From: a virus
Virus record (IMG/VR): IMGVR_UViG_3300044816_000056
Coordinates: 1 to 40,084 of that record
Strand: one strand, 5' to 3'
Length of the DNA stretch: 40,084 bases
Shown: in pieces, positions 159 to 39,320 of the stretch
Layout: every line of letters begins with the position of its first letter
Numbering within the stretch: position 1 is the stretch's first letter
The notes under the pieces: model-generated
What the model was told of the DNA's origin: nothing
Database searches by the model: none
The model's input: the letters and a program-made list of their open reading frames with translations, nothing else
Made by a program: the position numbers and the translations under genes

Positions 159-566
159 TCAGACTGGAAGTACGGGAGCAGCAGGGAGTTGCGGCACGGC
201 CTCGGTCGCCGGCGGAGCGACGGGCGCGGGTGCCGGGCTCGGCTCGGGCTTGATGGCGTCGACGATCGCCGGGGCGGCGTCGACGATCGCCGGGGCGGCG
301 TCGGGAGCGGCCGGCGCGGGAGTCCGGTCGGTGTGCGGCGCACGGTAACCGCTGAGGAATGTGATGCCGGGGATTGCGATGATGCCGACGATGCCGACGA
401 CCGGCGTGGGGACAGCGGCGACGGCCGCGATGGCGTGGGCAGCATCCGAGGGGACGTGCCAGACGATCACCCCGAGCAGCCACAGGATGAACGGGGACAG
501 GACTACGCCTGCTCCAGCTCCGCCGGTGGAGGCGATTACCTTCGTCTCGATGATCTTGCGCAGCAT
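159..566 (-). CDS. Holin-like small membrane protein
   Basis: A 135-residue protein and the last gene of the late operon. The N-terminal half has two hydrophobic segments (about residues 20-35 and 44-70). The C-terminal half is an Ala/Pro-rich tail containing a short direct repeat (APAIVDA twice, seen at the DNA level near 258-300). I chose the ATG at 566 because an AAAGGAG ribosome binding site precedes it; a longer open frame upstream overlaps the endolysin gene and looks like a shadow. Its position directly after the endolysin suggests a holin that permeabilises the membrane at lysis. This is inferred from topology and context, not from a recognised family motif. Confidence 0.7.
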   Translation of the reverse strand: MLRKIIETKVIASTGGAGAGVVLSPFILWLLGVIVWHVPSDAAHAIAAVAAVPTPVVGIVGIIAIPGITFLSGYRAPHTDRTPAPAAPDAAPAIVDAAPAIVDAIKPEPSPAPAPVAPPATEAVPQLPAAPVLPV

Positions 567-579
567 GGCGGTCTCCTTT

Positions 580-1539
580 TCAGTGGGCGGTGAGGGTGAG
601 GTGCGAGGCGATCGCGGTTGCGAGGGCCACGGCGTCGGGTGTGCCGGCCGGGTGGGCGCTGACGGCCTGTTGGATGACCGGGGTGAGAAGCGCGGCCAGC
701 TTCGCGGTGTCCTGGCCGGGGAGCGCGCCGAGCGCAGTCGCCAACTCGGCGTTGGTGGGCACGCCGCCGACAGCGGCTTCGATGGCGAGGACGTGGCCAC
801 GGATGTTGGTCAGATTGACCATGTGCTGCGGGTCGCTGCCCTCAACGATCTGGGTACGCAGGTCGGCGATCGCGGTGAGGATCGTCTGAACGTCGGACAT
901 GGAAAGGCCTCCTGATGCGTAGGTGCTACCGGCGGGCCACCATGCGTGGAGCGCCTTTGCGTCGGTGATGATGTTTCGATCAGTGCTCGGCACGGGTGAG
1001 CCGACCTCTTGCACGAGGCAGACGTTCGGCGACGCCGGGTTGAAGCCGGGGAACGATGACGAGCCGGATAGCCAGCCCTTGCCCTGGGTGAGGCCTTTGG
1101 CGTGGAGGTAGTCGATGAGCCCGCCTTGGCCGTAGCAGGCGATGATGAACCGGCCGTCGTTGACGTCGTTGATGCCCTTGAACGCCTCGCCCACTTCGCC
1201 GTAGCGCGACGGTGGAACGCTGACGTCGACCGAGAACGGGAACCAGATGGTTCCGTTTGCTGGGAAGCCGCAGCGGATCGCGTCACCGATACCCTGACGG
1301 GCCGCGCCTTGGCCCGCCGAGCGGTTGGAGACGAGCTCCCACAGACCTACCTCGTAGTTCGGCCACGGGCCGATCCCGCCCGCCCGTAAGCGCGCTACGT
1401 GCGCGGGGGTCTGCGCGAACTTCCCGGACACGTAGACGTTGGCAGCGATCCCGCCAGCGGCCTTGTAGACGCTCGCGGCGACGTCGTTGCCGTACTTGTC
1501 CTTCGGCGGGTCGGCGGCGTCGAATGCGTACAGGGTCAT
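580..1539 (-). CDS. Endolysin with Rv2525c-like (DUF1906) glycoside-hydrolase-like domain
   Basis: A 319-residue protein. Residues 1 to about 205 match the DUF1906 / Rv2525c-like glycoside hydrolase-like TIM-barrel pattern: an N-terminal YAFDAADPP strand, an acidic FSVDVSV strand, the ACYGQGGLIDYL strand and a C-terminal TDRNII acidic motif. The remaining 110 residues are alanine-rich, probably helical, and may target or multimerise the enzyme. No signal peptide is visible, so release would depend on the holin-like proteins next to it. The start at 1539 forms an ATGA overlap with the HNH gene. The probable role is peptidoglycan cleavage at lysis; the exact bond cut is not readable from sequence. 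Confidence 0.75.
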   Translation of the reverse strand: MTLYAFDAADPPKDKYGNDVAASVYKAAGGIAANVYVSGKFAQTPAHVARLRAGGIGPWPNYEVGLWELVSNRSAGQGAARQGIGDAIRCGFPANGTIWFPFSVDVSVPPSRYGEVGEAFKGINDVNDGRFIIACYGQGGLIDYLHAKGLTQGKGWLSGSSSFPGFNPASPNVCLVQEVGSPVPSTDRNIITDAKALHAWWPAGSTYASGGLSMSDVQTILTAIADLRTQIVEGSDPQHMVNLTNIRGHVLAIEAAVGGVPTNAELATALGALPGQDTAKLAALLTPVIQQAVSAHPAGTPDAVALATAIASHLTLTAH

Positions 1540-2006
1540 GAGAACAGGTCCCTCATGTACTGGCCCGCTTCCCAATCGGCGTGGCTAACGGTGTGCGCCC
1601 CGGCGTGGCCGCGATGATGGAAAGCGCATAGCCAGCGGAAGTTCGCTTCCGACTCGATCCACGAGCCGACCTCTTCGGGGTTGGAGATCCCCGGGTAGTC
1701 GACTTCGAGCGCCTCGAGGTCGACGCCGTTCTGCAGGCTGAACTCGATGTGCGCGTGGTGCAGTTCGAGCGGGCCGTCGGAGCATTGGTCTTTCCCGACC
1801 CGGTCACCGACGTAGCATGTCGCGGTGGCTTTGTGCTTGCGGTGGTAGGCGTTGAAGTCGGCGTAGTGCGGATCGTCTTTGCGCGCGGGGTGGGCCGGGA
1901 AGTGCATCACGTACTTGTGGCCCTGGGCCGTGGTGTGGGCCGCGACTTCCTGCGCCGGTGTCGGGACAGCGACCTGGTCGACGTGGACCTCGGACTCTTT
2001 GCTCAT
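1536..2006 (-). CDS. HNH endonuclease-like protein in lysis cassette
   Basis: A 156-residue protein. It has two cysteines at about 65 and 75, then LELHHAHIEF, then a C-terminal RWLCAFHHRGHAGAH segment. This is the His-Asn/His arrangement of HNH nucleases with structural zinc ligands. It overlaps its neighbours by ATGA on both sides (start 2006, stop 1536). HNH proteins often sit beside the terminase and support packaging, but this one is between a membrane coiled-coil protein and the endolysin, so it may instead be a homing-type or cargo nuclease. The family assignment is fairly secure; the role is not. Confidence 0.65.
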   Translation of the reverse strand: MSKESEVHVDQVAVPTPAQEVAAHTTAQGHKYVMHFPAHPARKDDPHYADFNAYHRKHKATATCYVGDRVGKDQCSDGPLELHHAHIEFSLQNGVDLEALEVDYPGISNPEEVGSWIESEANFRWLCAFHHRGHAGAHTVSHADWEAGQYMRDLFS

Positions 2007-2404
2007 CCCTCGTCTCCTTTCGGCGCCGGGACGCTCGGGATCCGCAGCTGGGCCCGGGTAACGTCGAGCTCGGTGCGCAGCTTCTCGACCAGGCCGCGCA
2101 GCTCGCCGAGCTCGGCGGCGTGCCGGCGGTTGTCTTCCGCCCGGCCGGCCCGCTCGGTTTCCAGGTCCTGGCGGACGGATTCCAGCTCGCGGTGTAGGCC
2201 GTTCACGACGTCCTGATTGATCTTTTGGGCCTGGGCGTACGCCTCACCAGCGACACGGCGACCCTCCAACTCGAGCTTTCCGGAGTCGATGACGGACTGG
2301 CGGGTCTCGGTTCGTTTGGCCCTGCGGTTCGTCACGAGGGAGGCCGCGAAGCCGAACACACTGGCGAAAAAGGCGAGTATCAGATCCGTGGCTACCTGGT
2401 TCAC
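2003..2404 (-). CDS. Membrane-anchored coiled-coil protein (lysis-associated)
   Basis: A 133-residue protein. A single hydrophobic segment at residues about 5-22 is followed by a basic NRRAKR stop-transfer patch and a long, charged coiled coil (about 40-120). The GTG at 2404 is preferred because it makes a GTGA overlap with the upstream gene; the longer open frame to 2647 has shadow-like Arg/His-rich composition. The one-membrane-helix-plus-coiled-coil layout fits a spanin-like or holin-partner protein, which is an inference from topology and lysis-cassette position. Confidence 0.7.
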   Translation of the reverse strand: MNQVATDLILAFFASVFGFAASLVTNRRAKRTETRQSVIDSGKLELEGRRVAGEAYAQAQKINQDVVNGLHRELESVRQDLETERAGRAEDNRRHAAELGELRGLVEKLRTELDVTRAQLRIPSVPAPKGDEG

Positions 2405-2823
2405 CGGTCCTCTCCGAGCGGCCGCGCGATCGGCGTCGGGTCGACCAGGCCGGAGACGCAGTACACGGCGCCGGCAAGCGCCCAGAAGATGCACGCCGTC
2501 ACCCAGCCCCGGCCGGTGTCGCCATTGACCCAGCCGATCATGTAGACCGCGCCCCACACCGTGGGCATGAGGACGGCGGCGGTGAATCCGCCGATGTGGC
2601 GGGCGGAAAGCCCAGCGACGACGCAGTAGACGCCCGAAGCGATCCACGCGGCCGCGTAGGCTTTTAGCGGCAGGATCAGGGTCGCGGTGTAGAGCGCCGT
2701 GTGGACGTTCTTGGGGATGTGGGCAACCCCGTAGGCGTAGCCCAGCAGCAGCGACAGCGCGCCGATCAGCATCAGAAACGCGTCGCGTAGATCAGGGCGT
2801 TGGAAGAAACCGGGGCTTCTCAT
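2401..2823 (-). CDS. Four-helix membrane protein, putative holin
   Basis: A 140-residue protein with about four transmembrane segments (approximate residues 14-34, 43-68, 75-98 and 108-126), separated by short loops, and a charged C-terminus. It sits at the tail-fibre to lysis boundary and is coupled by TAATG to the upstream tail gene and by GTGA to the downstream coiled-coil gene. With the membrane protein at 159-566 it is one of two holin candidates; actinophages often carry two such proteins flanking the endolysin. Confidence 0.65.
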   Translation of the reverse strand: MRSPGFFQRPDLRDAFLMLIGALSLLLGYAYGVAHIPKNVHTALYTATLILPLKAYAAAWIASGVYCVVAGLSARHIGGFTAAVLMPTVWGAVYMIGWVNGDTGRGWVTACIFWALAGAVYCVSGLVDPTPIARPLGEDR

Positions 2824-3395
2824 TACTGCTCCGCAATGAACTGGACGCCGTTGAGGGAAACAAAGGCGTTGCTGCCGCCTGTCGCGTACCCGGTTACTTG
2901 GATGTCACCGTTTGCGAACACGCTGAACTGAGCCGTGAAGGCGTTCGAGACTGCGGCGAATTGAATCTTCTTCAGGGGGCGGTACCCGGCGGGCAGCGTG
3001 AAAGCAGCGGCGGAGATGGTGCCCGATTTCATTGCGCCCTTGAGCCAGACGACGCCGCCCCGCAGTCGGTACTGGGGGATGTCGAATACCGCGCCCGCGT
3101 CGAACGACACCCACGAGTTGCCGAGGGTGGGCGTGATCCAGCCGGTGTCGCCGTCATTCATCGGGATCCACGCCGAGCCGGTATACCGCTCGTAGAACAG
3201 GCCGAACGACGCGTCAGCGCGGTAGGTGACGTCGCCGGCGTTGGGGGCGGTGATCGCGGCGGCCCTGGCTGCGGCGGTGGCGAATGAGCCGATGACCTTG
3301 TGGTCCAAGGACACCGCCAGATCCTGTATGTTGGCGGCGCCGTTGGGCGCTGCTGAGGGCAGCGGGTACGCGAGGCCGTTCGGTGTGGTTGCCAC
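2823..3395 (-). CDS. Tail fibre / receptor-binding-type minor tail protein
   Basis: A 190-residue protein. The N-terminus (TTPNGLAYPLPSAAPNGAANIQDLA) is the short collar commonly found on actinophage tail-tip proteins. A region with a GDVTYRAD..F..Y.GSAWIPM strand pattern and a beta-rich C-terminal domain follow. It starts with GTG at 3395; AGGAG of the ribosome site overlaps the TAG stop of the upstream gene. It probably contributes to host recognition at the tail tip. Confidence 0.65.
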   Translation of the reverse strand: MATTPNGLAYPLPSAAPNGAANIQDLAVSLDHKVIGSFATAAARAAAITAPNAGDVTYRADASFGLFYERYTGSAWIPMNDGDTGWITPTLGNSWVSFDAGAVFDIPQYRLRGGVVWLKGAMKSGTISAAAFTLPAGYRPLKKIQFAAVSNAFTAQFSVFANGDIQVTGYATGGSNAFVSLNGVQFIAEQ

Positions 3396-3402
3396 GGTTC
3401 TC

Positions 3403-3678
3403 CTAGATGTTCGGGAGGCCCACGACGCGGCCCAGGATGGTTGGTGAGTTGTTGACGATCAGCACGCGGACCTTCTGTCCGGCGGCCGGTGAGGTGAGCG
3501 AGTCGAGGTACGCCGCTTGGACGACGTCGGCACCGATCTGCAGGAAGACGCCAGCCACTCCGTCTGTCGTGGTCGCTGCTACGCCGATGTGGTCGATGAC
3601 GTAGTTCTGGACGGATAGCTGCTGGTCGCTCGCGGTGAGGCCCGTGAGGGCGTCGGCGAGGCTGGTGGTGTTGGGCAT
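3403..3678 (-). CDS. Small tail-tip protein
   Basis: A 91-residue protein. The ATG at 3678 is chosen because CTAGGAGCGTC gives a good ribosome site; the longer frame to 3741 lies inside the preceding gene. The fold looks beta-rich (QNYVIDHIGVAATTTDGVAGVFLQIGADVVQ). It lies between the DUF5047 tail protein and the receptor-binding-type protein, so it is probably a small structural tail-tip component. I do not recognise a named family. Confidence 0.6.
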   Translation of the reverse strand: MPNTTSLADALTGLTASDQQLSVQNYVIDHIGVAATTTDGVAGVFLQIGADVVQAAYLDSLTSPAAGQKVRVLIVNNSPTILGRVVGLPNI

Positions 3679-3685
3679 GACGCTC

Positions 3686-4846
3686 CTAGACGGTGTCGTC
3701 GGCGGTGGTGCGGGTGGCGCGGAAGCCGATCGACTGATCACCGCTGGGCATCAGCGGCACGGTGACCGAGTCGAGGATGTGGCGCTCGGAGGGTCGGACG
3801 GTGCCGAAGTCGCCGAGGGGGAAGTAGATGTCGGCGACGTCGTAGGCGTCGAGCGCCGGGTTCGGTGTGGATGTCGCGGTGAGCTGCTGCTGCACGGTTA
3901 GCTGCTTGTTGAGCAGCGTCTTGCCGGCGGCGTCCATCTGGGCTGCGTTGCGGAGCAGTGGTGAGGCGTAGTTGAACACCACGCGACCGAGCGGGCCGAG
4001 GGAGGACAGCGGGTCCGTGGCGGGCGATCGGGTGTTGGCGACCTCGCGCCCGGCGATGATGATGTCCGACGCGGAGGAGGTGATGGCGATGACGTTGTGG
4101 ACGGTGGTCAGGTCCCGGGTGCGGTTGGCGTCTTTCAGGATGCCGGTGGTGCCGGGTTTGATCGTCCACACCGGGACGCTGCCCGTCGTCAAGGTCGGGA
4201 TCGGTCGGAGGACCGCGAGGCCGTTGACGTCGAAGTAGCAGTCCAGGTTGTTGGCCTTCAGGATCGCCATGATGGCGTTCTCGCGGCTGCCGTCGTCCCA
4301 GACGAGCGAGCCGACCTTGGTGGTGGCCGACTGGTCGGGGTTGGTGACGCCGGTCGATGCCCAGCCGGGGAACGGGTAGGCGACGTTCGGCCACGCGGCT
4401 TCGACCAGGCGCTTGACCTCTTGCCAGCCGGCGTTGCTCGCCACCGATGAGCGGGAGACGCCGAACTCGTTGGACTGGATCCGCCACCAGCGGTCCGGGC
4501 ATTTCAGCGTGATCGAGCCGTCCGGGCGGTACCCCATGGATTGGGTGTTGACGCAGAAGATCCCGAGAGGGACGGTCTCGGTGGTGGTGTCGATGAACCG
4601 GTACGTCAGGCTCACCGTCAGCTCGCCGCCCGGAACTGAGAGCAGGTCGAACGTGGATTGCAGCGGCGCGAGGGTCAGGTCGAGTACGCGGCGGACGTTG
4701 GAGTTGACATCCACCGAGACCGTGCCGTCCACGATTGGGATCGTGGTTACCGCGGCGGTGAACGGGTTGCGGTGGGTGACGACCGGGTAGCGGGTCTGGC
4801 TGCTCGAGGTGAGGACCTGCTGCAACTGCGCGCTGATCGGGTACAC
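3686..4846 (-). CDS. Minor tail protein, DUF5047-like
   Basis: A 386-residue protein. The N-terminal strand pattern (YPVVTHRNPF...VDGTVSVDVNSNVRRVLDLTL) and the central KCPDRWWRIQ and FDVNGLAVLRPIP segments match actinophage DUF5047-type tail proteins, which form part of the tail-tip hub downstream of the distal tail protein. It starts with GTG at 4846, one base after the upstream stop region. Gene order (tape measure, distal tail, this, fibres) supports the role. Confidence 0.75.
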   Translation of the reverse strand: MYPISAQLQQVLTSSSQTRYPVVTHRNPFTAAVTTIPIVDGTVSVDVNSNVRRVLDLTLAPLQSTFDLLSVPGGELTVSLTYRFIDTTTETVPLGIFCVNTQSMGYRPDGSITLKCPDRWWRIQSNEFGVSRSSVASNAGWQEVKRLVEAAWPNVAYPFPGWASTGVTNPDQSATTKVGSLVWDDGSRENAIMAILKANNLDCYFDVNGLAVLRPIPTLTTGSVPVWTIKPGTTGILKDANRTRDLTTVHNVIAITSSASDIIIAGREVANTRSPATDPLSSLGPLGRVVFNYASPLLRNAAQMDAAGKTLLNKQLTVQQQLTATSTPNPALDAYDVADIYFPLGDFGTVRPSERHILDSVTVPLMPSGDQSIGFRATRTTADDTV

Positions 4847-4847
4847 G

Positions 4848-6185
4848 TCAGGTCCCGGCGATACCGGTAAGCACCCCGGTCCAGGTGGCGTACTTCGCCG
4901 ACAACGCGGAATAACTGGCCACCTCGACCGCTACGTCTGCCCAGGTGCGTTGCGCCGCGAGACCCCCGATGGGGCGGTCAATCTCGGTGATGGGCAGCGT
5001 CCAGACGTGTTTCGGGTCGCCGAACACCATGGTCACGGGCGTGTCGTTGACCACGCCAACCTTGATGTAGGCCCATTTTGTGGCGGTGGTGAACGGGAAC
5101 GCCATCTGCAGCAGCAACGGTGCGCTGCCTGATAGGAGCGCCTCGAGGTTGTTGTTCTCGGTGGATGTCTGGGTGCGGATCGTCAGTTGGGATTTCGCCG
5201 ACTTCCGCGCACCGTCGTTGACGACCTGGGCGAACTTCCGGCCGAGGATGACGTGCTCGGCCGATCCGTCGTCCATGTCGCGGCCGGTGAGCAGGGTGCC
5301 GTTGATGGGCATGGACAGGCCCGGCACGCCGGGATGCACCAGCCAGGACTGCGTGATCGGCAACGGTGCCGCCGCGACCGATGCCGGGGTGCTGAGATCG
5401 AGTGGGGTGACGGTGTACGTGACGGCGGTGCCGTAGGGCACTTCGTAGTCATAGCCCACCCATGTGCCGGAGGTGAGCGTGGCGGGGTCGCCCAGGCGGA
5501 CGGGCCGGATGTTGCCGTCGGCGTCGGTGCGGGTGATCTGCGCCTGTGTGCCGCTGACCCCGTTGACGTAGAGCAAGTTGCGGGGCGGGCTGTTGAACGG
5601 ATCGGCGTTGACCGTGATCGTCCCAGGCGGGGCGGTGAAGACCGACGTGGACAGGCCCGCGGTGCCGGTCCAGGAGCAGGACGCGAACGACCCGTCGAAG
5701 TAGGTGCCGGCGGCGGGGGTTTCGGTCAGGACCGAGTCGACCCAGGCTGACAGCGGGTAGGAGCCGGACAGGGGCGAGGGTAGGGACCGGTAGACCGATT
5801 TGACGCTGGCGACCGTGGTGGTGGCCGATGCCGTGAACGTGACCGAGATCCGCTGCGGTGACGACGCGGTGCCGGACACCTGGGCGCTGGTCTGACCCGC
5901 TGCGGTGAGGACGATCGGTGATCCGCCGTTGGCGAGATCTTGTTTGATCATCGCGGTAAAGGTGTACTGGGTGCCGACGACGGTGGTGAACGAGATCTGC
6001 GCACCGCACGGGACGTAGAAGCTGGACGCGACGTTCTGAGCCGGCGCCTGCGCCAGCAGCGACTTGGTCCCCACATCGGCCCAGGTCGCGTCCTGCGCGA
6101 TCGTCGCCGACGGCCCGAACGCTGACCAGCCCGCGGTGCTGACCTCGAACGACGGGTTGGTGCACAGGTTGGTCCTGTTGGCCAT
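4848..6185 (-). CDS. Minor tail protein with N-terminal carbohydrate-binding-like domain
   Basis: A 445-residue protein. Residues 1-165 (RTNLCTNPSFEVSTAGW start, beta-rich, Ser/Thr/Gly) look like the carbohydrate-binding-module-like jelly roll found on actinophage tail proteins. The C-terminal half (from about 215) has the distal-tail style beta domain including LTGRDMDDGSAEHVILGRKF. It follows the tape measure immediately, which is the usual place of the distal tail protein. It probably links the tail tube to the tip and contacts cell-surface glycans; the two-domain reading is inferred. Confidence 0.75.
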   Translation of the reverse strand: MANRTNLCTNPSFEVSTAGWSAFGPSATIAQDATWADVGTKSLLAQAPAQNVASSFYVPCGAQISFTTVVGTQYTFTAMIKQDLANGGSPIVLTAAGQTSAQVSGTASSPQRISVTFTASATTTVASVKSVYRSLPSPLSGSYPLSAWVDSVLTETPAAGTYFDGSFASCSWTGTAGLSTSVFTAPPGTITVNADPFNSPPRNLLYVNGVSGTQAQITRTDADGNIRPVRLGDPATLTSGTWVGYDYEVPYGTAVTYTVTPLDLSTPASVAAAPLPITQSWLVHPGVPGLSMPINGTLLTGRDMDDGSAEHVILGRKFAQVVNDGARKSAKSQLTIRTQTSTENNNLEALLSGSAPLLLQMAFPFTTATKWAYIKVGVVNDTPVTMVFGDPKHVWTLPITEIDRPIGGLAAQRTWADVAVEVASYSALSAKYATWTGVLTGIAGT

Positions 6186-15011: not shown

Positions 15012-15776
15012 TTAGCCGGCCGCGGTTTGATGCGCGGCGATTGCGGCGTGGAGTGATGTGGGGCGTTGCTTGCCTTCACCGGTCCCGCCGGTGAATTGGC
15101 CCCCGCTCACGCCAGCCGCCTGGACTGCCTTGAGCTTGGGGTTGCTGGTTACCGCGTCTTTGATCGCGGTCTCGACCTTGGCGGCGAAATCGGCCGCCTT
15201 GTGATCGAGGTCTTTCACCTTCGCCAGGAAGGAATTCGAGTCGAGCAGCGCCGACGGGTCAGCCTGCTGCTTGGATGCGGCCTGGTAGATCGCAAGGTTG
15301 ATCGCGGCGCTCTTCGCTTCGGTCTGGGCGGCCTCGATTTGCTTGGCGAGCTCGGCCGGGTCGGTCGCCGCGTCAGGCTTCAGGCCGAGGGCGACCGCCA
15401 GCTTTTCGGTCAGTTCCTTCTGGGCCTGCTCGGCTGCCGTCTTGCCCTGGACCCGTGCGTCGCCGGCGTCCTTGCGGGCCTCGGTGATGATCTTCTGTGC
15501 CCACTCCGGAAGGTCTTTGACCTCCTGACCCGGGGTGGGTACCGGGGCCGGAGCCGGTGCAGGAGCGGGCGCCGGAGCCGGTGCAGGAGCTGGCGCCGGG
15601 GCCGGAGCAGGGGTAGGCGCTGGCGCTGGGGCGGGCGGTGGATCACCGGCCGGGGCTGAGCCGCCCATGATGGGCCAGATGGGACCACGCTTCGTGTAGC
15701 CGAGGGCCTTCAGCGGCATGCCGGTCAGCGGGTGCCGCAGGTACGGGTGGACGGGCAGCGTGCACTTGGTGCTCAT
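15012..15776 (-). CDS. Scaffolding protein with Pro-Ala repeat
   Basis: A 254-residue protein. The N-terminus (HPYLRHPLTGMPLKALGYTKRGPIWPIMGG) is a short conserved-looking capsid-binding arm. A Pro-Ala dipeptide repeat follows at about residues 47-83, encoded by low-complexity DNA at about 15540-15640. Then comes a long Lys/Glu/Ala-rich coiled coil (about 90-215) and a disordered tail. It should guide procapsid assembly and be lost on maturation. No protease motif is seen in it or nearby. Confidence 0.8.
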   Translation of the reverse strand: MSTKCTLPVHPYLRHPLTGMPLKALGYTKRGPIWPIMGGSAPAGDPPPAPAPAPTPAPAPAPAPAPAPAPAPAPAPAPVPTPGQEVKDLPEWAQKIITEARKDAGDARVQGKTAAEQAQKELTEKLAVALGLKPDAATDPAELAKQIEAAQTEAKSAAINLAIYQAASKQQADPSALLDSNSFLAKVKDLDHKAADFAAKVETAIKDAVTSNPKLKAVQAAGVSGGQFTGGTGEGKQRPTSLHAAIAAHQTAAG

Positions 15777-17225: not shown

Positions 17226-18843
17226 TCGGATTCACGGGCTGGCCGTTACCGTCGAGCGGCGGTTGGCCTGAGCCGAATGGGTCGGCCAGCGGCGGCGGCA
17301 CCTTCGCGGCCACCTCGGCGTTGATCTTGACCACTTCGGCCTGCACCTGCTCGTCGTTCCAATCTGGGTGCACCATGGCCACCCGGACCTCGAGCGAGGC
17401 CGACTCGGCCTGAAACAGCGCGAGCGCGGTCTGGGACAGCGCCAGCGGCGTCTCCTGGACACCGTTGGCGAAGTGCACGTCCGGCCGGGCCGGCGTTACC
17501 CCGCTGTTGAAGATCACGGCGTCGACCGCCAGGAGCTTCTCGACGACGTCGGCGATACCCGGCCGCCACAGCCGCAGCTTGCGGTCACGCGTCAGCAGCG
17601 ATCGGCGTTCCCGCTGCTCGACCTCGGTGGCGGTGCGTACATTGCCGGTGTCGCCCTCGCCGAAGGTCTGCGTGGAGTAGCCCGAGGTACGCAGGATGTT
17701 CTCCACCAGCTGCTGAGCGGTGGCCTTGTGCTCGGCGTACCGGATCTTGAACTGAACCGACTCGATGCCGAGGTTCGTCTGTCCGCCGCTGCTGCCGGAA
17801 GCCATGAGTGCGTTGACCGGGGAGTACGCCTCCTGGTCGGCGTTGAAGAACGATCCCTGGCCGGGGCCGAGGTTTTCCAGCAGCGACTTGGCGATCATGA
17901 TCCGGGCCTTACCGAGGCGAATGTCGCGCATCCACGAGGCGTAGGTCTCATCGAGCGCGTCCATCAGCGGCTCGACGCCGTCGAGGTCCGAGCGGCCCAG
18001 GTGGGTGCCGTGCGGGTCGTTGCGCCAGCGACGTTGTGGGCGCTGGTTCGGGATGTAGGTGACGGCCAGCCCAGGCGATTCGGTGCTGATCATCGACTCC
18101 GCGTTGACGTGCTGGGCGAAGATCGCGGTGGCCGGCCTCTCGACCAGCGGAATGACCCGGCCGAGGTTGCTGGGGCTGCCCTCGTACAGGCCGTGCAGGA
18201 TGACGCCGTTGCCGTTGGCGTCCAGCTCGTGCCGCTCCAGGTGGCGCCAGACCCGGTTGTTCTGGTCGTAGTCGACGATTGTCCAGAAGGTGACCGCGCG
18301 CAGGTGGCCCCATTGGAATTCGGGCCACGCGGCGTCTGCGTGGATGGCGGTCAGGAACGGGGCGTTGCGCAGGGCGCGGTCCCACGTGACCCGCAGGTAG
18401 ACACCGCCGAGCGCGGCCGCGACCTCGGCGGCCTCGGCCAGGGTCGAGTACATGCCGTCATCGGCCAGCTCTTCGATGCGGTCCTGGGTGGCCTGGTCAT
18501 CGACCAGCAGCGTGGGCTGGTCGGAGAACAGTAGATCGGCCGAAGCCTGGCAGAGGTCCGAGGCGATCGGCACGTGGATCATGTCGCGCTGCAGGTAGCC
18601 GTCGGTGCCGACCGGCCGCCCCCACCAGAACCGTTGCAGGATGCCCCGGAAGCCACCGTGCTGCTGCTGGCGCTGCAAGGCCAGTTGCGGACCGACGCCG
18701 GCGGTGTTGAAGTTGCCGCGGCCGTAGGCGGTGCGCAGCGCCTCGGGTGTGCCCTCATACCAGGCCGACCACTGGCCGAGCACGGGCGTGACGACTGCCA
18801 GCTCCTGCGGGGGCCACTGGAGGTTGTTCGCTGGTAGCGGCAC
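17206..18843 (-). CDS. Portal protein (SPP1 gp6-like)
   Basis: A 545-residue protein. It starts with GTG at 18843 in a TAGTG overlap with the terminase stop. WSAWYEGTPEALRTAYG near the N-terminus, HVPIASDLCQASADLLFSD at about 100, and the long SLLTRDRKLRLWRPGIADVVEKLLAVDA helix near the C-terminus are typical of actinophage portal proteins. The dodecameric ring it forms is the DNA channel and the docking site for the terminase and adaptor. Confidence 0.9.
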   Translation of the reverse strand: MPLPANNLQWPPQELAVVTPVLGQWSAWYEGTPEALRTAYGRGNFNTAGVGPQLALQRQQQHGGFRGILQRFWWGRPVGTDGYLQRDMIHVPIASDLCQASADLLFSDQPTLLVDDQATQDRIEELADDGMYSTLAEAAEVAAALGGVYLRVTWDRALRNAPFLTAIHADAAWPEFQWGHLRAVTFWTIVDYDQNNRVWRHLERHELDANGNGVILHGLYEGSPSNLGRVIPLVERPATAIFAQHVNAESMISTESPGLAVTYIPNQRPQRRWRNDPHGTHLGRSDLDGVEPLMDALDETYASWMRDIRLGKARIMIAKSLLENLGPGQGSFFNADQEAYSPVNALMASGSSGGQTNLGIESVQFKIRYAEHKATAQQLVENILRTSGYSTQTFGEGDTGNVRTATEVEQRERRSLLTRDRKLRLWRPGIADVVEKLLAVDAVIFNSGVTPARPDVHFANGVQETPLALSQTALALFQAESASLEVRVAMVHPDWNDEQVQAEVVKINAEVAAKVPPPLADPFGSGQPPLDGNGQPVNPNDLTGQ

Positions 18844-20117
18844 TACGCGGCCTCCTTCGCAAAGTCTCGGATGTGACCCCGCCACATGGATTCAGTGGTG
18901 GTGATCGCGTAGCGCTGGGCATCGAGCGAGTGGTCGGCAACCTTCATCGGCACGTCCTTGCCGAGGTCGGTCTGTTTGGAGTCCCACGAATAGCCGGGGA
19001 TCTCCTGGATCAGGCCGAGGCAGCGGTCCGAGACCTTCAGCTGGTCCGCGCCTAGCAGGGAGGCCACCGTGCGGATCCCGTAGGCGACGTCGTTGTCGGC
19101 GTCGGTGAGTCCTTGGACGCCGTCGTTGTACAGCTGGACCTTGAACGACGCGGCCGCCGGGTCGACGGCGATCCACTCGGGCCGCTGATCGTTGACCATC
19201 GGCAGGTGTGCCAGGTCCAGCCAGCCCCGCAGCCCGGCCGACAGCTGGGCGTCGGTGAGCCGGACGTTGGTCTGCGCCGGGTCGTGCCGCCACTCGTCGA
19301 CCATGTACAGCCGGCGGTCCACGCCCAGGCCGAGCATGAGCGCGGCGGTGGCGTTGGTGGTGCCGTAGTCGACGCCCACGGCGATCAGCCGGCTCATCTG
19401 CGGTAGCTCGAGCCAGGGCACGACGTGCTGGCGGTCATCCCACATCGGGTAGATCGCGCCTTCAGCGGCGACCCACTCCCCCAGGATGAACCGGCGGTAC
19501 CACAGGCCGGTGAACTCGCGGCTGATCGAGGTGATGTACTCCGCGGTCAGCGAAGGGTTGTCGGGCAGCGTGAAGTGGAACCGGCGCCAGTCGGGCAGCT
19601 TGGCGATGCGATCCAAGAACCGGCGCTTGAGCCAGTGCGCCGGGTTGTCCGGGTTGGTGGTGCCGAACAGTTGCGCCTTGGGTACGGACATGCGGCCGAG
19701 CAGCTGGGTGAAGAACTGCTCGGGCAGCGTGGTCAGCTCGTCGGCGTAGGCGCCGGCGACGGTCATGCCCCGGATCACCATCTCGGCCTTGGCGTCGGAT
19801 GCGCCGATCACATGCACCGTCCGGCCGAGGATCTTCACAGTCGGCGCGCCTTGATTGCCGATGACGTACTGGCTGACCGATCCGAACAGGGCCGGGTCCA
19901 TGAGCGGGCCGAGCACGTTGCGCCAGAGCGCGTCGCGGGTACGGCCCACCATCACGAGCTCGCCGCCTCGGGGGGCACTGGCGACGTAGATCAACCACCG
20001 CAGTAGCGAGGCGATGGTCTTGCCCGATCGGATGGAGCCTTCCCACACCGACACCCGGGTGATCGAGTCGCGGATGGACTCGGCCTGTCTGGGTGACAGA
20101 GGCAGGTCAGGCGTCAT
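18843..20117 (-). CDS. terL: Terminase large subunit
   Basis: A 424-residue protein. ATPase motifs: Walker A GSIRSGKT at 27-34 and Walker B with D126-E127 in AYADEL, followed by the FGTTNP coupling motif at 151-156. Nuclease domain: VGVDYGTTNA with D250 as first metal ligand, then WIAVDPAA and DADNDVAYGI as later acidic positions. It cuts concatemers and pumps DNA through the portal. It overlaps the small subunit by 11 bases. Confidence 0.93.
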   Translation of the reverse strand: MTPDLPLSPRQAESIRDSITRVSVWEGSIRSGKTIASLLRWLIYVASAPRGGELVMVGRTRDALWRNVLGPLMDPALFGSVSQYVIGNQGAPTVKILGRTVHVIGASDAKAEMVIRGMTVAGAYADELTTLPEQFFTQLLGRMSVPKAQLFGTTNPDNPAHWLKRRFLDRIAKLPDWRRFHFTLPDNPSLTAEYITSISREFTGLWYRRFILGEWVAAEGAIYPMWDDRQHVVPWLELPQMSRLIAVGVDYGTTNATAALMLGLGVDRRLYMVDEWRHDPAQTNVRLTDAQLSAGLRGWLDLAHLPMVNDQRPEWIAVDPAAASFKVQLYNDGVQGLTDADNDVAYGIRTVASLLGADQLKVSDRCLGLIQEIPGYSWDSKQTDLGKDVPMKVADHSLDAQRYAITTTESMWRGHIRDFAKEAA

Positions 20118-24165: not shown

Positions 24166-24467
24166 TTGGTTGGCCCGTCGTTGCCCTGCTCGGCGTCTCC
24201 ACGCGCGTGACCGGGCAAACGTCCGGGCGCGTCCGGTTCGCCGTCCACGGTGATCTCGATCGGCTTCTTGCTGATCGCCTCGGCCAGGTCGTGAGCGAGC
24301 ATCCACGTCGGGCTGATCGGGCCGGTGTCTCGCAGCCGCTCGGCGATGAACGCCGCGGCCTGCTCCAGCTGGGCCGGCGTCAAACCGTCGATAGGTTGCT
24401 TGGCCGCCGGGGCGTCGATGGGTTTCGAGGCGGGGATCAGCCAGCCGGCGCTGTCGTATTCGGTCAT
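24162..24467 (-). CDS. Small protein linking replication and HTH genes
   Basis: A 101-residue protein, ATGA-coupled to the polymerase fusion and GTGA-coupled to the next gene. The helix LTPAQLEQAAAFIAERLRDTGPIS is followed by a second helix (WMLAHDLAEAISKK) and a disordered acidic tail. No family is recognised. Its tight linkage suggests co-production with the polymerase. Confidence 0.6.
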   Translation of the reverse strand: MTEYDSAGWLIPASKPIDAPAAKQPIDGLTPAQLEQAAAFIAERLRDTGPISPTWMLAHDLAEAISKKPIEITVDGEPDAPGRLPGHARGDAEQGNDGPTK

Positions 24468-27400
24468 GAGGCGTCCTTCCAGGAGAAGCTAGGTTCGGAC
24501 GCCTCGGCTTTGATCGAGACCCCGAACAGGGTGGTTTCCATGGCCGCCACGAGGGTGGCGGTGGCTTCGGCGGCGTCGGCTTCGGGCACGAACACCAGCA
24601 CCTCGTCATGCACCGGCATCAGCACGGCGTTGCCCCAGCGGGTGTCGCGCCAGCGCATCAGCGTGTCCACCAGCAGCTCGCGGGCGGTGCCCTGCACGCA
24701 GTAGTTGAGGGCCTTGTGCGGCAGCTTCTGGTCCAGGTGGATGACCCGGCCGGAGTAGCTCTCGTACTTCGTCATGCCACCCTGCACGGCCCTCTTGAGC
24801 CCGGCCGTCCAGCTGGCCAGCTGCGGCGTCATCGCATCCAGTGAGGCCACGATGGCGTCGGCTTCGATCTCGGAGATGCCGAGGGTGCGGGTGATGCCGG
24901 GGATGCCGGAGCCGTACAGCCGGCCGAAGACGGCTCGCTTGGTGTTGTAGCGGTCTTCCTTCGTGGCGTCAGGGCCGTACGCCTGGCGGGCGATCTCCCA
25001 GTGCAGGTCGATGCCGTTGTCGAGCATCGTGATTAGGGTCTGGTCCTGGCTGAGTGCGGCCGCCACCCGGACTTCGACGCTGGCGAAGTCGGCGGACACG
25101 ATCAGCTCACCCGGGTCGGCCGTGACGCAGGCGCGCATGCCGCCTTGGCGCGGCACCTGCTGCAGGTTGGGCCGCACGCAGGACATCCGGCCGGTGTCCG
25201 CGCCGAGCGTGTAGACCGTGGGCCGGGCCCGCCCGTCGCCGCGGTGCACCAGCTGGGCGTAGGGCTCGAGGAACAGGCCCAGCACGGTCTCGTGGTGCTG
25301 GTAGTCCAGGCGGGCGCGGACCAGGTCGCCGACCGGGCCGTCAATCTTGGCGAACGGCTCCAGCACGCCCTTGGCCACACTCGGCCGGCCGGTCTTGGTG
25401 TGCGCCAGCGGTGCGCCCATCTCGATCAGCTTGGCGCCGACCTGCTGGTCAGAGCCGGGGTTGTCGATGCCGAATGCCTGCAGCCTTGCGCCGGCGGCCG
25501 CGAGGGCGTCGCGGTGCTCCGGCAGCTTGGCGTTGACGTGCTCGGCGTCCAGGCGCACGCCGTGGTGAGCCACGCGGGCGGTGAGCCGTTGGGCGGTCCG
25601 CTCGCGCTCCAGGACGTGCGGCGGGACGGCGGGGAGGATCTTGGCCAGCGCGGCGGTGTCGAGAACGTCGGAGGCCGCGTAGCGAACCATCGTCGTGCAG
25701 GCCGGATCCACCTGGGCCCAGCCGGAGCGCTCGAGCGGGGTGGTGGCCTTCGTGTCGGTCAGCCACTTACCCGCCTTGAACAGCGCCGCCCGGGCCCCGT
25801 CGGCCGCCGGCGCGGTGGCGGAGTCGCCGAGCACCGCGGCGGCCAGCTGCTTGAGGCCGGGGTCTGAGCCGGTGGACTGCGGGTCCGCCAGCTTGGCCGG
25901 GATCACCGTGTCGTGCATGCGGTCCCACGCGGCGTCCAGGTCGAACAGCTCGAGCGCGGCGAGCGGCACAAGATCCGCGGTTGCGGAGTGCGCGTGCAGA
26001 ACCTGGGCGTCGTGCAGGATCCGGCTGGCGAGTCCCGCGTGGGCCGGGTCGGCGGCGTCGAACACCAGGGCGGCGTGCTCGTTGCCCAGCTGGATCGTTC
26101 GGAGCGCGTAGTCGGCGTGCCCGATCGGGTAGCCCGTGGTCTCGACGTCCACCGTCAGCTCGGCGAGCATGCCGAAGGCCTCGACCAGTTCGGGCACGTT
26201 GGCGAGGTCGATCGAGCGGACCGAGCCGTCGCGGGTCACCACGGCCGGCAGTGTCACCAGCTCGCCGGCGGCATCGGCGATCGCCGCGGCCAGCGCCTCC
26301 GCCTTGGCGGCCACCTTGGCCGCGGCGCGCTCCGCCGGGTCGACCTTGGTGCGCTTGGGCTTGGCGGCCGTCGCCAGCTGCGCGGCGTCCCGGGCGTGAG
26401 CCTCGGCCTTGGCCGCCAGCAGGGTCGCCACGAGCTGCGCGGCGAACGTCGGGGGCGGGTTCGACGTGTGTGGAGGGTAGGTGGGGGCCTTTTCGGACTG
26501 TTGTGGAGGGTCCGCCGGGGCGCTACCCCCCGTATTTACTGGATTGGTGGGGGGTGTGGAGGGTGTGGGGGGTGGAGTGTCCCTCTCTTGCGTATATGCG
26601 CGTGTGTGTGCGCGTGCGTGATTAATAGGGTTAAGACCCTCCACACCCTCCACACCCTCCACCCGGGGTGCCCCCGCCCCAGCGATTACCGGCGTTTCCT
26701 GGTGTGGAGGGTTTGCCGCCGAACCCTCCACAACCCCTCCACCGGAGAGCCACGAACCGAGGGACCGGACGCGCAGTGCGCGGTAATTTCCGTTGCGCCG
26801 CTTGATCGCCGGGTAGCCGAGCTTGTTGAGCTCGATTCCCCATTTGGGCAAACTGGGCGTCGCTGAGTCCTTCATGCCCATGTCGCGCGCCCATTCCACG
26901 AACGCTCTGCGAAGGTCGTGGGCAGGTGTGCCGGCGTCGAACGGGTCGCACGCGCCCTCCACCCAGGCGTTGACCACGTTCTGCTCGGCCGCGATCTCCT
27001 CGGCGCGGTATCGGTAGCGCTCCGGAGCTGATTCGGTCCGCCCCGTGTTCTCATCAGCCAGCCACCCGGCCGCCTCGCGCATCAAGGCCGCCAGCACGCC
27101 GGGGGCTTCCGCCCGCCATGCCGGCCCGGATGGGCTGCCGATAGCGCGCCGAGCCGCGATGACCTCGACCGGGTCGCCTTCACAAGGGATGAGCCGGACC
27201 CGTCGCCGGACTGCCGGATCGGTCAGCAGCGGCGCCTCGTTGGCGGTGAGCACCAGGGTGTGCGTGGGGGTGAAGGTGATCGGGTTTCGGCCCATGTCGT
27301 TACCGGTGAGCTCGCCGCCCCCAGTGAGCTGCTTGAGCCGCTCCTGACTGGACGCGCTGTCCCGGGGCGCCTCGTCGATGAATGACAGCCGGCGGCCTTT

Positions 27401-29206
27401 CAGGGCCGTGACGATCGAGGCGTGAGAGCGATCGGTGCCACCCAGCAGCCGGGGGTCCGCCGCGTGGGCGTACGAGCCGAGCACCGACATGATGAGCACG
27501 ATCACCTGGGTCTTGCCGCGGTCACCTTCGCCGACCAGGATCGGCAGCACCTTGGCCGCGTCCCCCGTGACGGCGACGGACAGCACCCGCAGCGCCCAGG
27601 CACGCAGCTCGGGATCTGGCCAGACGGCCGCGGTGAAGGCATCCCAGAGCGGCGTCGGCCGCACCAGCGGAGCGACCGCGGCCGCGCGCAGGTGCGGGGT
27701 GGACGGGTCGACGAACGCCTGGGTCGGCTGGTCGATTGACGCGCGCAGATCCCACGCGACTCCGCCGGCCCAAAGCAGCCACGTGTCCCGGTCCAGGTCA
27801 GCAGCAGCGACGGCGCAAGGGTGCGTGCCGCCGGCGAGCAGCGCACGCATCTTCTTAGCGATCGCTCCGGACGGCGCGGCGGACATGAATCGACGGCGAC
27901 GATCGGCCTGAGAGCGCGCGTCGGTGCCTTTGTCCGCGTCGGGATCACCGTGCGGCATGAGCGCCGCGACCTCGGTGATCGCCCACTCGGACAGGTCGGT
28001 GAGGTCCTCCCAGTATTCGGGCCCGCGTCGGAGCCAGCCGTGGGAGTCGTAGGCGTAGCGCATCACCGGGAACATCCGCTCGAGGACCGCCTGGCCGAGG
28101 TGGTGGTCCAGGTGGAACAGCGGGTCGAAAAGGTGCGCGCCGATGGCTTCCCGCACGCTCCACGCCCGCGGCGGCGCGATCGGCTCGGCTGGGTCTCCGC
28201 CGGGCAAACCACCGGGTGACGGGGCCGGGACGAGTGTGAGGCCGATCGACTCGAAGCAAGGGTCGCGGTCAACGGGCGCGGTGCGCCCGACGCGCGTAAC
28301 CGCCTTGCGGGCGGCGGTAACGAACATCCGCAGCCACTCGTCACCGCGGTCCTCGCCGGCGGTGATCCGCTCCCACAGTTCCGTCAGCTCGTCGAAGGCC
28401 GTGCCCAGGCCGGGGTGACCGTCCGCCGCGAGCTGCACGAGGTTCCACGCCCGGTCATCAGCCGCATCGTGACGGGTGCCGGTGGTGGACGCTTCGATCA
28501 GTCGGTGTGCGTCCAGCAGCGCGGTGGCCATCTGGGCGCACGCCGGCCGGTCGTCGTCCGAGATCGCCGACCACATCTGCTCGCCGTCGGACTGCGGCGC
28601 GGCCAGGTCGGTGACGCCGGAAGCGCCCTCACGCAGGCCGGCCACCCACGCCTCGGGCAGTTCGGGCAGCTCGTTCGGCTTGGGCGGCGGTGACGGTAGA
28701 TTCCGCGGGTCGTACCACTGATAGACCGCGCCGGCGCCCACATGGAGCGAGGGCCAGACGACGGCGTAGCGGTGGTGGCGCTGGATGATCTCGACGTCCG
28801 GGCCGAGCACCGTGGCGTAGCGCTCGACCGGCACGCGGAAAAACATGATCTGGCTGGGGCCGGGGCCGGCTTCGCTGCCGCGGGCGGTGCTCGACCAGGT
28901 CGCCGGCAACGGCCCCCAGCGCTGCCAGGCCGCGTTGACGGTATCGGCACCGCGCTTGGTCACCTCGCCTTTGACGTACTCGTCGACGTCGATACCGATG
29001 ACGCCTTCGGGCATCCGGATCGCGATCGAGCTGTCGGCGTGGCTGCCGGCCCAGCGCACCAGCTGCTCGGGGTCGGCGTCCACGCCGCTGGCGCCGGTGA
29101 AGCCCGCCGGCGGCGGCGTCTTGGTCTCAGGCGGCACCGGAACGACCGGCCAACCGGCCTGCGCGTACGCGAGGACCGAGTCGGCGAAGGGGCGGGGCTG
29201 GTTCAT
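24464..29206 (-). CDS. Fused AEP primase / SF3 helicase / DEDDy exonuclease / family A DNA polymerase
   Basis: A single 1580-residue chain. Domains in order: AEP-type primase-polymerase, about 1-195 (metal site GIDVDEY with D73 and D75; HRYAVVWPS near 145-153); D5-like region, about 340-520; SF3 helicase, about 540-690 (Walker A GEGDRGKT 559-566, Walker B LSFIDEA 607-613, sensor LVLTANEAP 651-659) and a winged-helix-like region to about 815; disordered Pro/Gly linker 820-930; 3'-5' exonuclease with intact DEDDy set D1020, E1022, D1078, Y1176, D1180; polymerase with motif A D1373, motif B R1419, K1423, F1427, Y1431 and motif C VHDE with D1534. All catalytic motifs are present, so one protein could prime, unwind, copy and proofread. 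These are normally separate proteins. The frame is open throughout. Confidence 0.93.
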   Translation of the reverse strand: MNQPRPFADSVLAYAQAGWPVVPVPPETKTPPPAGFTGASGVDADPEQLVRWAGSHADSSIAIRMPEGVIGIDVDEYVKGEVTKRGADTVNAAWQRWGPLPATWSSTARGSEAGPGPSQIMFFRVPVERYATVLGPDVEIIQRHHRYAVVWPSLHVGAGAVYQWYDPRNLPSPPPKPNELPELPEAWVAGLREGASGVTDLAAPQSDGEQMWSAISDDDRPACAQMATALLDAHRLIEASTTGTRHDAADDRAWNLVQLAADGHPGLGTAFDELTELWERITAGEDRGDEWLRMFVTAARKAVTRVGRTAPVDRDPCFESIGLTLVPAPSPGGLPGGDPAEPIAPPRAWSVREAIGAHLFDPLFHLDHHLGQAVLERMFPVMRYAYDSHGWLRRGPEYWEDLTDLSEWAITEVAALMPHGDPDADKGTDARSQADRRRRFMSAAPSGAIAKKMRALLAGGTHPCAVAAADLDRDTWLLWAGGVAWDLRASIDQPTQAFVDPSTPHLRAAAVAPLVRPTPLWDAFTAAVWPDPELRAWALRVLSVAVTGDAAKVLPILVGEGDRGKTQVIVLIMSVLGSYAHAADPRLLGGTDRSHASIVTALKGRRLSFIDEAPRDSASSQERLKQLTGGGELTGNDMGRNPITFTPTHTLVLTANEAPLLTDPAVRRRVRLIPCEGDPVEVIAARRAIGSPSGPAWRAEAPGVLAALMREAAGWLADENTGRTESAPERYRYRAEEIAAEQNVVNAWVEGACDPFDAGTPAHDLRRAFVEWARDMGMKDSATPSLPKWGIELNKLGYPAIKRRNGNYRALRVRSLGSWLSGGGVVEGSAANPPHQETPVIAGAGAPRVEGVEGVEGLNPINHARAHTRAYTQERDTPPPTPSTPPTNPVNTGGSAPADPPQQSEKAPTYPPHTSNPPPTFAAQLVATLLAAKAEAHARDAAQLATAAKPKRTKVDPAERAAAKVAAKAEALAAAIADAAGELVTLPAVVTRDGSVRSIDLANVPELVEAFGMLAELTVDVETTGYPIGHADYALRTIQLGNEHAALVFDAADPAHAGLASRILHDAQVLHAHSATADLVPLAALELFDLDAAWDRMHDTVIPAKLADPQSTGSDPGLKQLAAAVLGDSATAPAADGARAALFKAGKWLTDTKATTPLERSGWAQVDPACTTMVRYAASDVLDTAALAKILPAVPPHVLERERTAQRLTARVAHHGVRLDAEHVNAKLPEHRDALAAAGARLQAFGIDNPGSDQQVGAKLIEMGAPLAHTKTGRPSVAKGVLEPFAKIDGPVGDLVRARLDYQHHETVLGLFLEPYAQLVHRGDGRARPTVYTLGADTGRMSCVRPNLQQVPRQGGMRACVTADPGELIVSADFASVEVRVAAALSQDQTLITMLDNGIDLHWEIARQAYGPDATKEDRYNTKRAVFGRLYGSGIPGITRTLGISEIEADAIVASLDAMTPQLASWTAGLKRAVQGGMTKYESYSGRVIHLDQKLPHKALNYCVQGTARELLVDTLMRWRDTRWGNAVLMPVHDEVLVFVPEADAAEATATLVAAMETTLFGVSIKAEASEPSFSWKDAS
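26469..26743. other. Iteron array with Z-DNA tract, putative replication origin inside the polymerase gene
   Basis: Seven exact copies of TGTGGAGGG or its complement start at 26469, 26502, 26555, 26637, 26646, 26703 and 26724, plus one-mismatch copies at 26564, 26655 and 26735. The copies at 26637-26663 are in perfect 9-bp tandem. Left and right groups face each other around 26589-26620, where 32 bases alternate strictly pyrimidine-purine (T-G, C-G, T-A steps), followed by ATTAATAGGGTTAA. The array coincides with linker residues about 822-913. Both orientations are used although they encode unrelated peptides (VEG versus PPH or PPQ), which argues for selection on the DNA. Confidence 0.6.
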
Positions 29207-30582: not shown

Positions 30583-31053
30583 TCATCGCACGGCCACCTT
30601 TGAGCTGAGTGGATCGGCCAGCAGGGACTCGTGAACACCGGCGTAGAGGGCGTGCCTGGCGGCGTCGCGGGCGTGGCCCATGCCTTTGGTGGCGGCCAGG
30701 AGCCCGGCGGCTTCGAGGCGCTTCTCGGTGGCCCAGGTTTTGACGGTGGCGGCGTTGCGGCTGAACGTCTGCACGCCGAGGGTGCCGAGCGCGCCGATCA
30801 GCTCGCGGGTCATGTGCCCGGCCGCGGCGCTACCGGACCGCCCGGCGCGGCCGCTGACCACGAACCGCTCCACCGCGATCAGGCCCGTGTCCCACACGGT
30901 GTCATCGACCAGGGCGCCGACGAGCAGCATGGCGGCCTCGTATCCGTAGGCCTGGTACAGCAACGGCTCGACGGCCATCGCCTGCTCCACGATGTGTAGG
31001 GCGCACACGCCGGTGGTCATCCCCGGGTCGACGCCGATCACCAGGGCCGTCAC
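30583..31053 (-). CDS. RuvC-like Holliday junction resolvase
   Basis: A 156-residue protein from GTG 31053 (GTGA overlap). RNase-H-fold motifs: VIGVDPGMTTG with D9, LIAVERFVV with E62, and GMGHARDAARHALYAG with D130. These match actinophage RuvC-like nucleases, somewhat shorter than cellular RuvC. It should resolve branched replication or recombination intermediates before packaging. Confidence 0.85.
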   Translation of the reverse strand: MTALVIGVDPGMTTGVCALHIVEQAMAVEPLLYQAYGYEAAMLLVGALVDDTVWDTGLIAVERFVVSGRAGRSGSAAAGHMTRELIGALGTLGVQTFSRNAATVKTWATEKRLEAAGLLAATKGMGHARDAARHALYAGVHESLLADPLSSKVAVR

Positions 31054-31256
31054 GCTGGGATCTCCGCTGGTCGGTCGGCGGGAGCGTCGATGACCGTGCG
31101 CACGGCGTTCGCGCAGGTGGGACAGAGCCGTACGTTGCGGATGGGGTGACCAGTGATGGTGATCACGGACCAACCGGAGGGGTCGGCGGGCAGACCGGCG
31201 ACCGAGTCCTGATCTGCCGTTGCAACGCACCGGCTGCAGGTCAGGTAGGTGCTCAT
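31050..31256 (-). CDS. Zinc-ribbon protein
   Basis: A 68-residue protein: CSRC at 7-10 and CPTC at 45-48 around a beta segment (WSVITITGHPIRNVRL). A typical two-knuckle ribbon of unknown role. It starts at ATG 31256, 18 bases from the divergent plus-strand gene, and is GTGA-coupled to the resolvase. Confidence 0.68.
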   Translation of the reverse strand: MSTYLTCSRCVATADQDSVAGLPADPSGWSVITITGHPIRNVRLCPTCANAVRTVIDAPADRPAEIPA

Positions 31257-31274
31257 GAGGCACACTCCGTGGTC

Positions 31275-39152: not shown

Positions 39153-39320
39153 GGTGCGAACTGTAGTGCGAACTTTTGCGCACGTCAACTAGTGCGCACT
39201 AGTTCTCGCAAAAGTTCCCGGATTACCGGACCTACAAGATAGTTACACCGTTGTCATTGCGAACTATCGCGAGTATGTGCGCAGTTGACTTCGCACAAGT
39301 TCGCACGTCACCCTGTGGGC
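39153..39320. promoter_or_regulatory. Operator array between divergent regulators
   Basis: Half-sites related to GTGCGAACT / AGTTCGCAC lie at 39154-39162, 39166-39174, 39257-39265 (TTGCGAACT), 39277-39285 (GTGCGCAGT), 39288-39296 (ACTTCGCAC) and 39298-39306. A perfect 16-bp palindrome ACTAGTGCGCACTAGT is at 39188-39203. A plus-strand promoter candidate is TTGTCA (39251-39256), 17 bases, TATGTG (39274-39279). This is the layout of a lambda-like bistable switch. Confidence 0.75.
39160..39188 (-). promoter_or_regulatory. Early promoter driving a leaderless transcript
   Basis: The minus strand has TTGACG (39188-39183), a 17-base spacer, TACAGT (39165-39160), then seven bases and ATG 39152. The expected start point falls on the A of the ATG. 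Two GTGCGAACT half-sites (39154-39162 and 39166-39174) overlap the -10 box and the spacer, so a regulator bound there should block it. Confidence 0.72.

Follow-up and report, generated by a model that had tools for sequence, protein, structure and literature searches.

The window, i.e., the whole stretch of DNA that we analysed (a virus record of 40,084 bases), comes from a phage of soil actinobacteria. It codes for a terminase large subunit (18843-20117) matching those of Streptomyces phage Piccadilly and Gordonia phage Cafasso at 55%, as well as for a portal, a major head protein, an SNF2-type helicase and an exonuclease. A long PAPAPA repeat protein, possibly a scaffold, is encoded at 15012-15776 adjoining the major head protein gene; the product of 30583-31263 resembles a RuvC-like resolvase by eye and belongs to phrog_1981 (function unknown); and near the right end, at 39155-39305, AGTTCGCA occurs four times, possibly as an operator array.

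The gene under study is read on the minus strand from an ATG at 29206 to a stop at 24464, and the reading frame of an upstream neighbour overlaps its start codon. The claim of an earlier note on this DNA, that one uninterrupted frame of 1580 codons occurs here, proved exact in its coordinates, and the number of internal stops is zero. The single chain comprises, in this order, a Prim-Pol domain, a D5/SF3 helicase, a winged helix (WH), a linker, a DEDDy exonuclease and a family A polymerase. The features of the gene are listed in Table 1.

Table 1. Features of the fused replicase gene in the window (aa, residues of the encoded protein)
Feature	Position	Strand	Details
Fused replicase gene P0001	24464..29206	-	1580 aa; homologues L002, L003, L042, L043, L044
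Prim-Pol (AEP-type) domain, aa 12-179	28670..29173	-	Pfam PF09250, E=1.5e-21; DxD = D73/D75
D5_N and SF3-type helicase, aa 382-665	27212..28063	-	PF19263, E=6e-8; TIGR01613, E=4e-30; Walker A GEGDRGKT 559-566; Walker B LSFIDEA 607-613
Winged-helix-like C-terminal domain (predicted to bind the origin), aa 736-818	26753..27001	-	AlphaFold model: helices and beta wing, pLDDT mostly 70-90
Pro/Ala-rich linker, aa 819-1005	26192..26752	-	no Pfam domain; most divergent part, 26-56% identity between homologues
Iteron array in linker-coding DNA, candidate replication origin	26469..26743	.	CCCTCCAC x9, both orientations; 7 exact TGTGGAGGGT
Spacer separating two iteron clusters that face inward, candidate unwinding element	26574..26635	.	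TTAACCCTATTAAT; tract of alternating CA/CG
DEDDy 3'-5' exonuclease, aa 1006-1191	25634..26191	-	PF01612 (DNA_pol_A_exo1), E=3e-7
Family A DNA polymerase, aa 1249-1569	24500..25462	-	PF00476 (DNA_pol_A), E=8e-46

Domains and recurrence of the fused replicase

The same full-length fusion occurs at five further loci: two IMG/VR contigs (L002 and L003), two Micromonospora assemblies (Micromonospora sp. MW-13 and a 320-kb contig of Micromonospora zingiberis) and a Jatrophihabitans metagenome-assembled genome (MAG). Because it recurs in independent assemblies, the fusion is not an artefact of assembly or sequencing; nor is it limited to the window phage, there being six loci of the window type and a second family, described below. 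A first genome scan for the fusion with two query sequences gave no match, and no phage or plasmid record had one place covering at least 80% of the query. The M. zingiberis contig (L043) carries an integrase-like frame and a terminase near the fused gene, and we take the locus to be a prophage.

The residues and motifs that the earlier note had cited (D73/D75, GEGDRGKT, LSFIDEA, D1020/E1022/D1078/Y1176/D1180, D1373, R1419/K1423 and VHDE) are located where it placed them. All are unchanged in L002, a full-length homologue of 76% identity, and L003 (full-length, about 56-58% identical) retains them except for GERDRGKT and LSFIDEG.

The Prim-Pol domain scores 78 bits against a Pfam cut-off of 22.8, and D73, D75, H144 and H145 are invariant across the six homologues. 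The catalytic site of AEP-type primases comprises DxD, motif II (usually expected as SxH) and a third acidic motif; none of the six homologues has the histidine of motif II, the window having GPSQIMFF and its relatives PSGIRFYR at that place. An intact primase is thus shown for the DxD pair only, and primase activity is uncertain because this histidine is missing. A profile of the Prim-Pol part compared with solved structures yielded no credible relative, and the quality of its predicted model did not suffice for matching folds.

In the helicase part, DUF5906 (the SF3-type core; residues 557-665, E=6e-8) scores above the Pfam cut-off, the D5_N match (residues 382-529) is weak and below it, and the TIGR01613 match reaches 104.6 bits versus a cut-off of 108.7. 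A primase domain followed by D5_N and an SF3-type core is the arrangement of P4-type primase-helicases and also that of the window protein; phrog_1156, a primase family in PHROGs, spans residues 3-805 (E=3e-98). The AlphaFold model of the helicase-WH part has a mean pLDDT of 64. Its best structural match is the SaPI5 primase-helicase (Z 17.0), followed by vaccinia D5 (Z 16.6) and relatives; the alignment with the SaPI5 protein (7om0) spans model residues 19-486, the WH included. The window protein thus has the build of an SF3-type initiator of the SaPI/SCCmec kind with a C-terminal, putatively DNA-binding domain, for which the model shows WH-like elements.

The exonuclease-polymerase half possesses polymerase motifs A, B and C and Exo I-III, and the catalytic residues, D1020, E1022, D1078, Y1176 and D1180 among them, are invariant in three homologues. 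phrog_17, a polymerase family, spans residues 992-1578; the best PDB match of the polymerase is Taq Pol I, and the polymerase of the apicoplast protein PREX (plastid replication-repair enzyme complex of apicomplexans) was matched too.

Iterons in the linker-coding DNA

The linker is translated: over 1162 codons in six homologues there is no in-frame stop, versus 23 and 27 stops in the other two frames. The earlier note had seen the linker only as a join; the DNA that codes for it forms an array of iterons and resembles an origin.

None of 1000 protein-preserving codon shuffles attains the nine copies found in the window. The spacer between the iteron clusters is flanked by inverted arms (26546-26573 and 26636-26663) that are 93% complementary. 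Arrays of 8-11 copies in both orientations are present at the same place in all six window-type linkers; null means range from 2.3 to 3.4 and null maxima from 4 to 7, and in each of the six genes the observed count was attained in 0/1000 codon shuffles. Chance or codon bias as the cause of the repeats is ruled out by these protein-preserving shuffles. The iteron itself differs between phages (ACCCTCCAC, CCCTGCAC, ACCCGTCA): ACCCTCCAC belongs to the window and L044, CCCTGCAC to L002, ACCCGTCAG to L003 and ACCCGTCAC to L042 and L043. A single iteron is read in different frames, that of the window as VEG, PST or NPPH and that of L003 as DGL or TGS, so that it is the DNA and not the peptide that is conserved in the linker. 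The iterons are under selection at the DNA level.

A DNA pattern scan found no near-identical iteron arrays in viral contigs. GC skew has no turning point at the array and is uninformative. A spacer motif, GCTCTCCCTATACGC, was considered as common to all candidate origins and is unsupported outside part of the second family.

A second fusion family and unfused relatives

A second architecture, consisting of DUF3854 (which we take to be TOPRIM-like), D5/SF3, exonuclease and PolA, was found in 14 IMG/VR contigs and in one complete Streptomyces plasmid, pS1D4-14.2, where the fusion is annotated as “phage/plasmid primase, P4 family”; one of the 14 contigs appears to be the same element as this plasmid. 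In the IMG/VR contig L035, the open reading frame at 201-5765 specifies a fused replicase of 1854 residues with an intein-like insertion in the helicase part (LMDTDG and a LAGLIDADG-like motif).

The two fusion families arose separately. On the trees of both halves, placing all fusions in one clade is rejected by the AU test (PolA, p=1e-98; helicase, p=0.003), so the families do not go back to one shared fusion event. In the PolA tree, the second family is sister to the Streptomyces phages BabyGotBac and Xkcd426, and the window family lies with the phiC31/BabyDaisy group; in the helicase tree, L020 and L021, which are small Streptomyces plasmids, form the sister of the second family. Since some branches of the trees are long, we are more certain that the clades are separate than which sisters they have.

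The second-family linker also contains tandem iterons, arranged as inverted pairs with arms mostly of 17-30 nt and a spacer of roughly 30-50 nt, and these pairs outscore every shuffle in 10 of 13 cases.

The earlier note held that the two halves are usually separate genes. This is true of the annotated actinophages examined (phiC31, BabyDaisy, SuMoo, Samy, BabyGotBac and others), in which the modules are often neighbours. In five Streptomyces plasmids from the helicase group adjacent to the second family, inverted iterons occur 41-173 nt after the helicase stop codon, in unannotated DNA, with scores of 20-28 versus null maxima of 10-12; two of the five entered the helicase tree, both as sisters of the second family, whose closest unfused relatives thus carry the iterons beyond the stop. 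A sixth, more distant plasmid has an inverted iteron 126-210 nt after it. Iterons adjoin the 3' end of the helicase part in fused genes and unfused plasmids alike, which is the SaPI/SCCmec-type position. An inverted repeat after the helicase stop of one Streptomyces plasmid (L024:3440-3530) has a core, AACCCGTCAC, that is shared with the linker iterons of L003, L042 and L043.

Among actinophages with a separate primase, Labelle, Zany and LittleFella have repeats after the primase gene beyond those of shuffles; the phiC31, BabyDaisy, BabyGotBac and Commandaria groups have no array behind that gene. The comparison of the states before and after fusion rests on the helicase side, because the phages with the nearest PolA show no array. 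No close unfused sister of the window family was found. Three Streptomyces plasmids whose helicase is of the same type (L014, L016 and L017) have iteron arrays (GGGACTGA, CGACTGAA; at about 3030-3670) upstream of the Prim-Pol gene and not downstream of the helicase.

A candidate origin inside the replicase gene

PREX is the product of a nuclear gene, targeted to an organelle. It has a TOPRIM primase and a DnaB/Twinkle-type helicase, neither of which is homologous to AEP and SF3; its primase domain is reportedly matured by proteolysis, and we know of no origin in its linker. The window replicase, with its Prim-Pol and D5/SF3 modules, is not a member of that family and resembles it in architecture only: both are single polypeptides in which a primase is followed by a helicase, a 3'-5' exonuclease and a family A polymerase (PMC8113025, PMC6523293). 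The initiator helicases of SaPI and SCCmec bind, via their C-terminal domain, iterons directly downstream of their own gene (PMC7581432). SaPI Rep and SCCmec Cch2 are like the window protein in having a D5/SF3-type helicase with a C-terminal domain, but they have no fused polymerase and their origin lies outside the gene, whereas the candidate origin of the window lies inside. An origin within an initiator gene is known from lambda, where gene O includes ori-lambda, with four 18-bp iterons and a 38-bp AT-rich part (PMC3349717). Iterons and an AT-rich stretch within the initiator gene are common to both; lambda O, however, is neither primase, helicase nor polymerase, and its origin joins no two enzymes.

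A D5-like helicase also shares a chain with a polymerase related to family A in the TV-Pol-D5 fusions (Sputnik V13 among them), but TV-Pol, a predicted prim-pol, is located N-terminal of the helicase and never occurs with a nuclease domain (PMC2579912), so that the order differs from that of the window. phiC31 gp9a/gp11 and BabyDaisy 41/42 have the modules of the window in the same order, with gene ends that sometimes overlap, but as separate proteins, and their junction is devoid of an iteron array. Many helicase fusions are described in a survey of AEP families (PMC5862659); those that we found in it include none with exo-PolA. Our literature search, which covered few subscription papers, returned no description of an AEP-SF3-exo-PolA fusion or of an origin serving as interdomain linker. 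The earlier note knew of no description of this exact fusion, and we found none in the literature searched; the architecture is, however, not unique, having six members and a second family, and PREX has the same order.

We consider it probable that the gene specifies a replisome in a single chain and that the DNA coding for its linker is the replication origin of the phage, and we infer the origin function of the array from its sequence and position. Iterons of both orientations would be bound by the winged helix with which the SF3 helicase ends. If SaPI-type initiators are a guide, two rings of the helicase could then form opposite each other and open the AT/CA-rich spacer. Priming would be the task of the Prim-Pol domain; the attached exonuclease-PolA, which the linker would hold to the moving helicase, would extend and proofread the new strand. 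With this anatomy, unwinding, priming, synthesis and proofreading would be physically coupled, as the earlier note suggested.

As to how the fusion came about, comparison of fused and unfused relatives suggests that the gene of an SF3 initiator, with an iteron origin just after its stop codon, came to lie before a polA gene, and that loss of the stop between them caused the origin to be translated as a linker. With somewhat less assurance, we lean towards the view that initiator and polymerase were joined on two or more occasions by read-through of an origin, the linker DNA being the origin and the linker peptide a by-product of a cis-acting DNA element. If the peptide is such a by-product, the iterons can change between phages while the frame stays open; and if an origin was read through into a linker, the gene would itself hold the site at which its product, the replicase, binds and initiates replication.

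Iterons can also serve autoregulation and partition, and the arrays upstream of the Prim-Pol gene in plasmids L014, L016 and L017 are compatible with such roles. That the fusion is real and the repeats constitute an operator, a partition site or another site for a different protein is nevertheless unlikely, although to be reckoned with: the array lies mid-gene, far from any gene start, and whether the genes are fused or not, it stays just behind SF3-WH, where SaPI and SCCmec have their origins (PMC7581432). We deem it distinctly unlikely that two proteins come from one gene, either as the full chain together with a polymerase started in the linker or by cutting of the chain as reported for the PREX primase. 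The window iteron does feature GGAGG ahead of in-frame GTG codons (4 nt upstream in the case of the GTG at residue 826), but GGAGG is absent from the iterons of L003, L042 and L043, and the six genes share no start that has a Shine-Dalgarno-like site.

The arms of 17-30 nt, near-perfect in most second-family members, would also suit a hairpin in RNA or single-stranded DNA, acting for instance in a translation pause between the halves or in strand-specific initiation. Such a function is very unlikely to explain the repeats, as tandem same-strand copies with a period of 9-10 nt are unnecessary for a hairpin, and L003 and L044 are rich in iterons but have no long inverted repeat above the null. 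Finally, the peptide is repetitive (GVEGVEGVEG, TPSTPPT), as a mere low-complexity Pro/Thr/Gly linker with codons repeating by chance would be; this is scarcely credible given the outcome of the protein-preserving shuffles in each of the six genes and the occurrence of copies on both strands and in different frames.

If the linker is indeed the origin, it exemplifies a route by which neighbouring replication genes can fuse, the intervening origin losing its stop codons, and selection would act on both its DNA sequence and its reading frame. An initiator that starts replication within its own transcribed gene, and a helicase ring carrying up to six polymerases, would then become testable propositions. 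The single-chain replication machine is a compact test object for the coupling of helicase, primase and polymerase, and the fused replicase is a candidate enzyme for primer-free isothermal amplification.

Across the six sequences, one residue of the wing agrees with the type of iteron (His in L003, L042 and L043; Lys or Arg in the window, L002 and L044), an agreement that we regard as only a lead. The correspondence of WH domain and iteron is not straightforward, because L044 pairs a window-like iteron with a helicase-WH part that groups with those of L003 and L043; few residues, or a different protein, may determine which iteron is recognized. The replicase of L044 appears to be a mosaic, in which exo-PolA and linker are closest to the window and the primase-helicase is closer to L003 and L043, and this suggests recombination at or near the linker.
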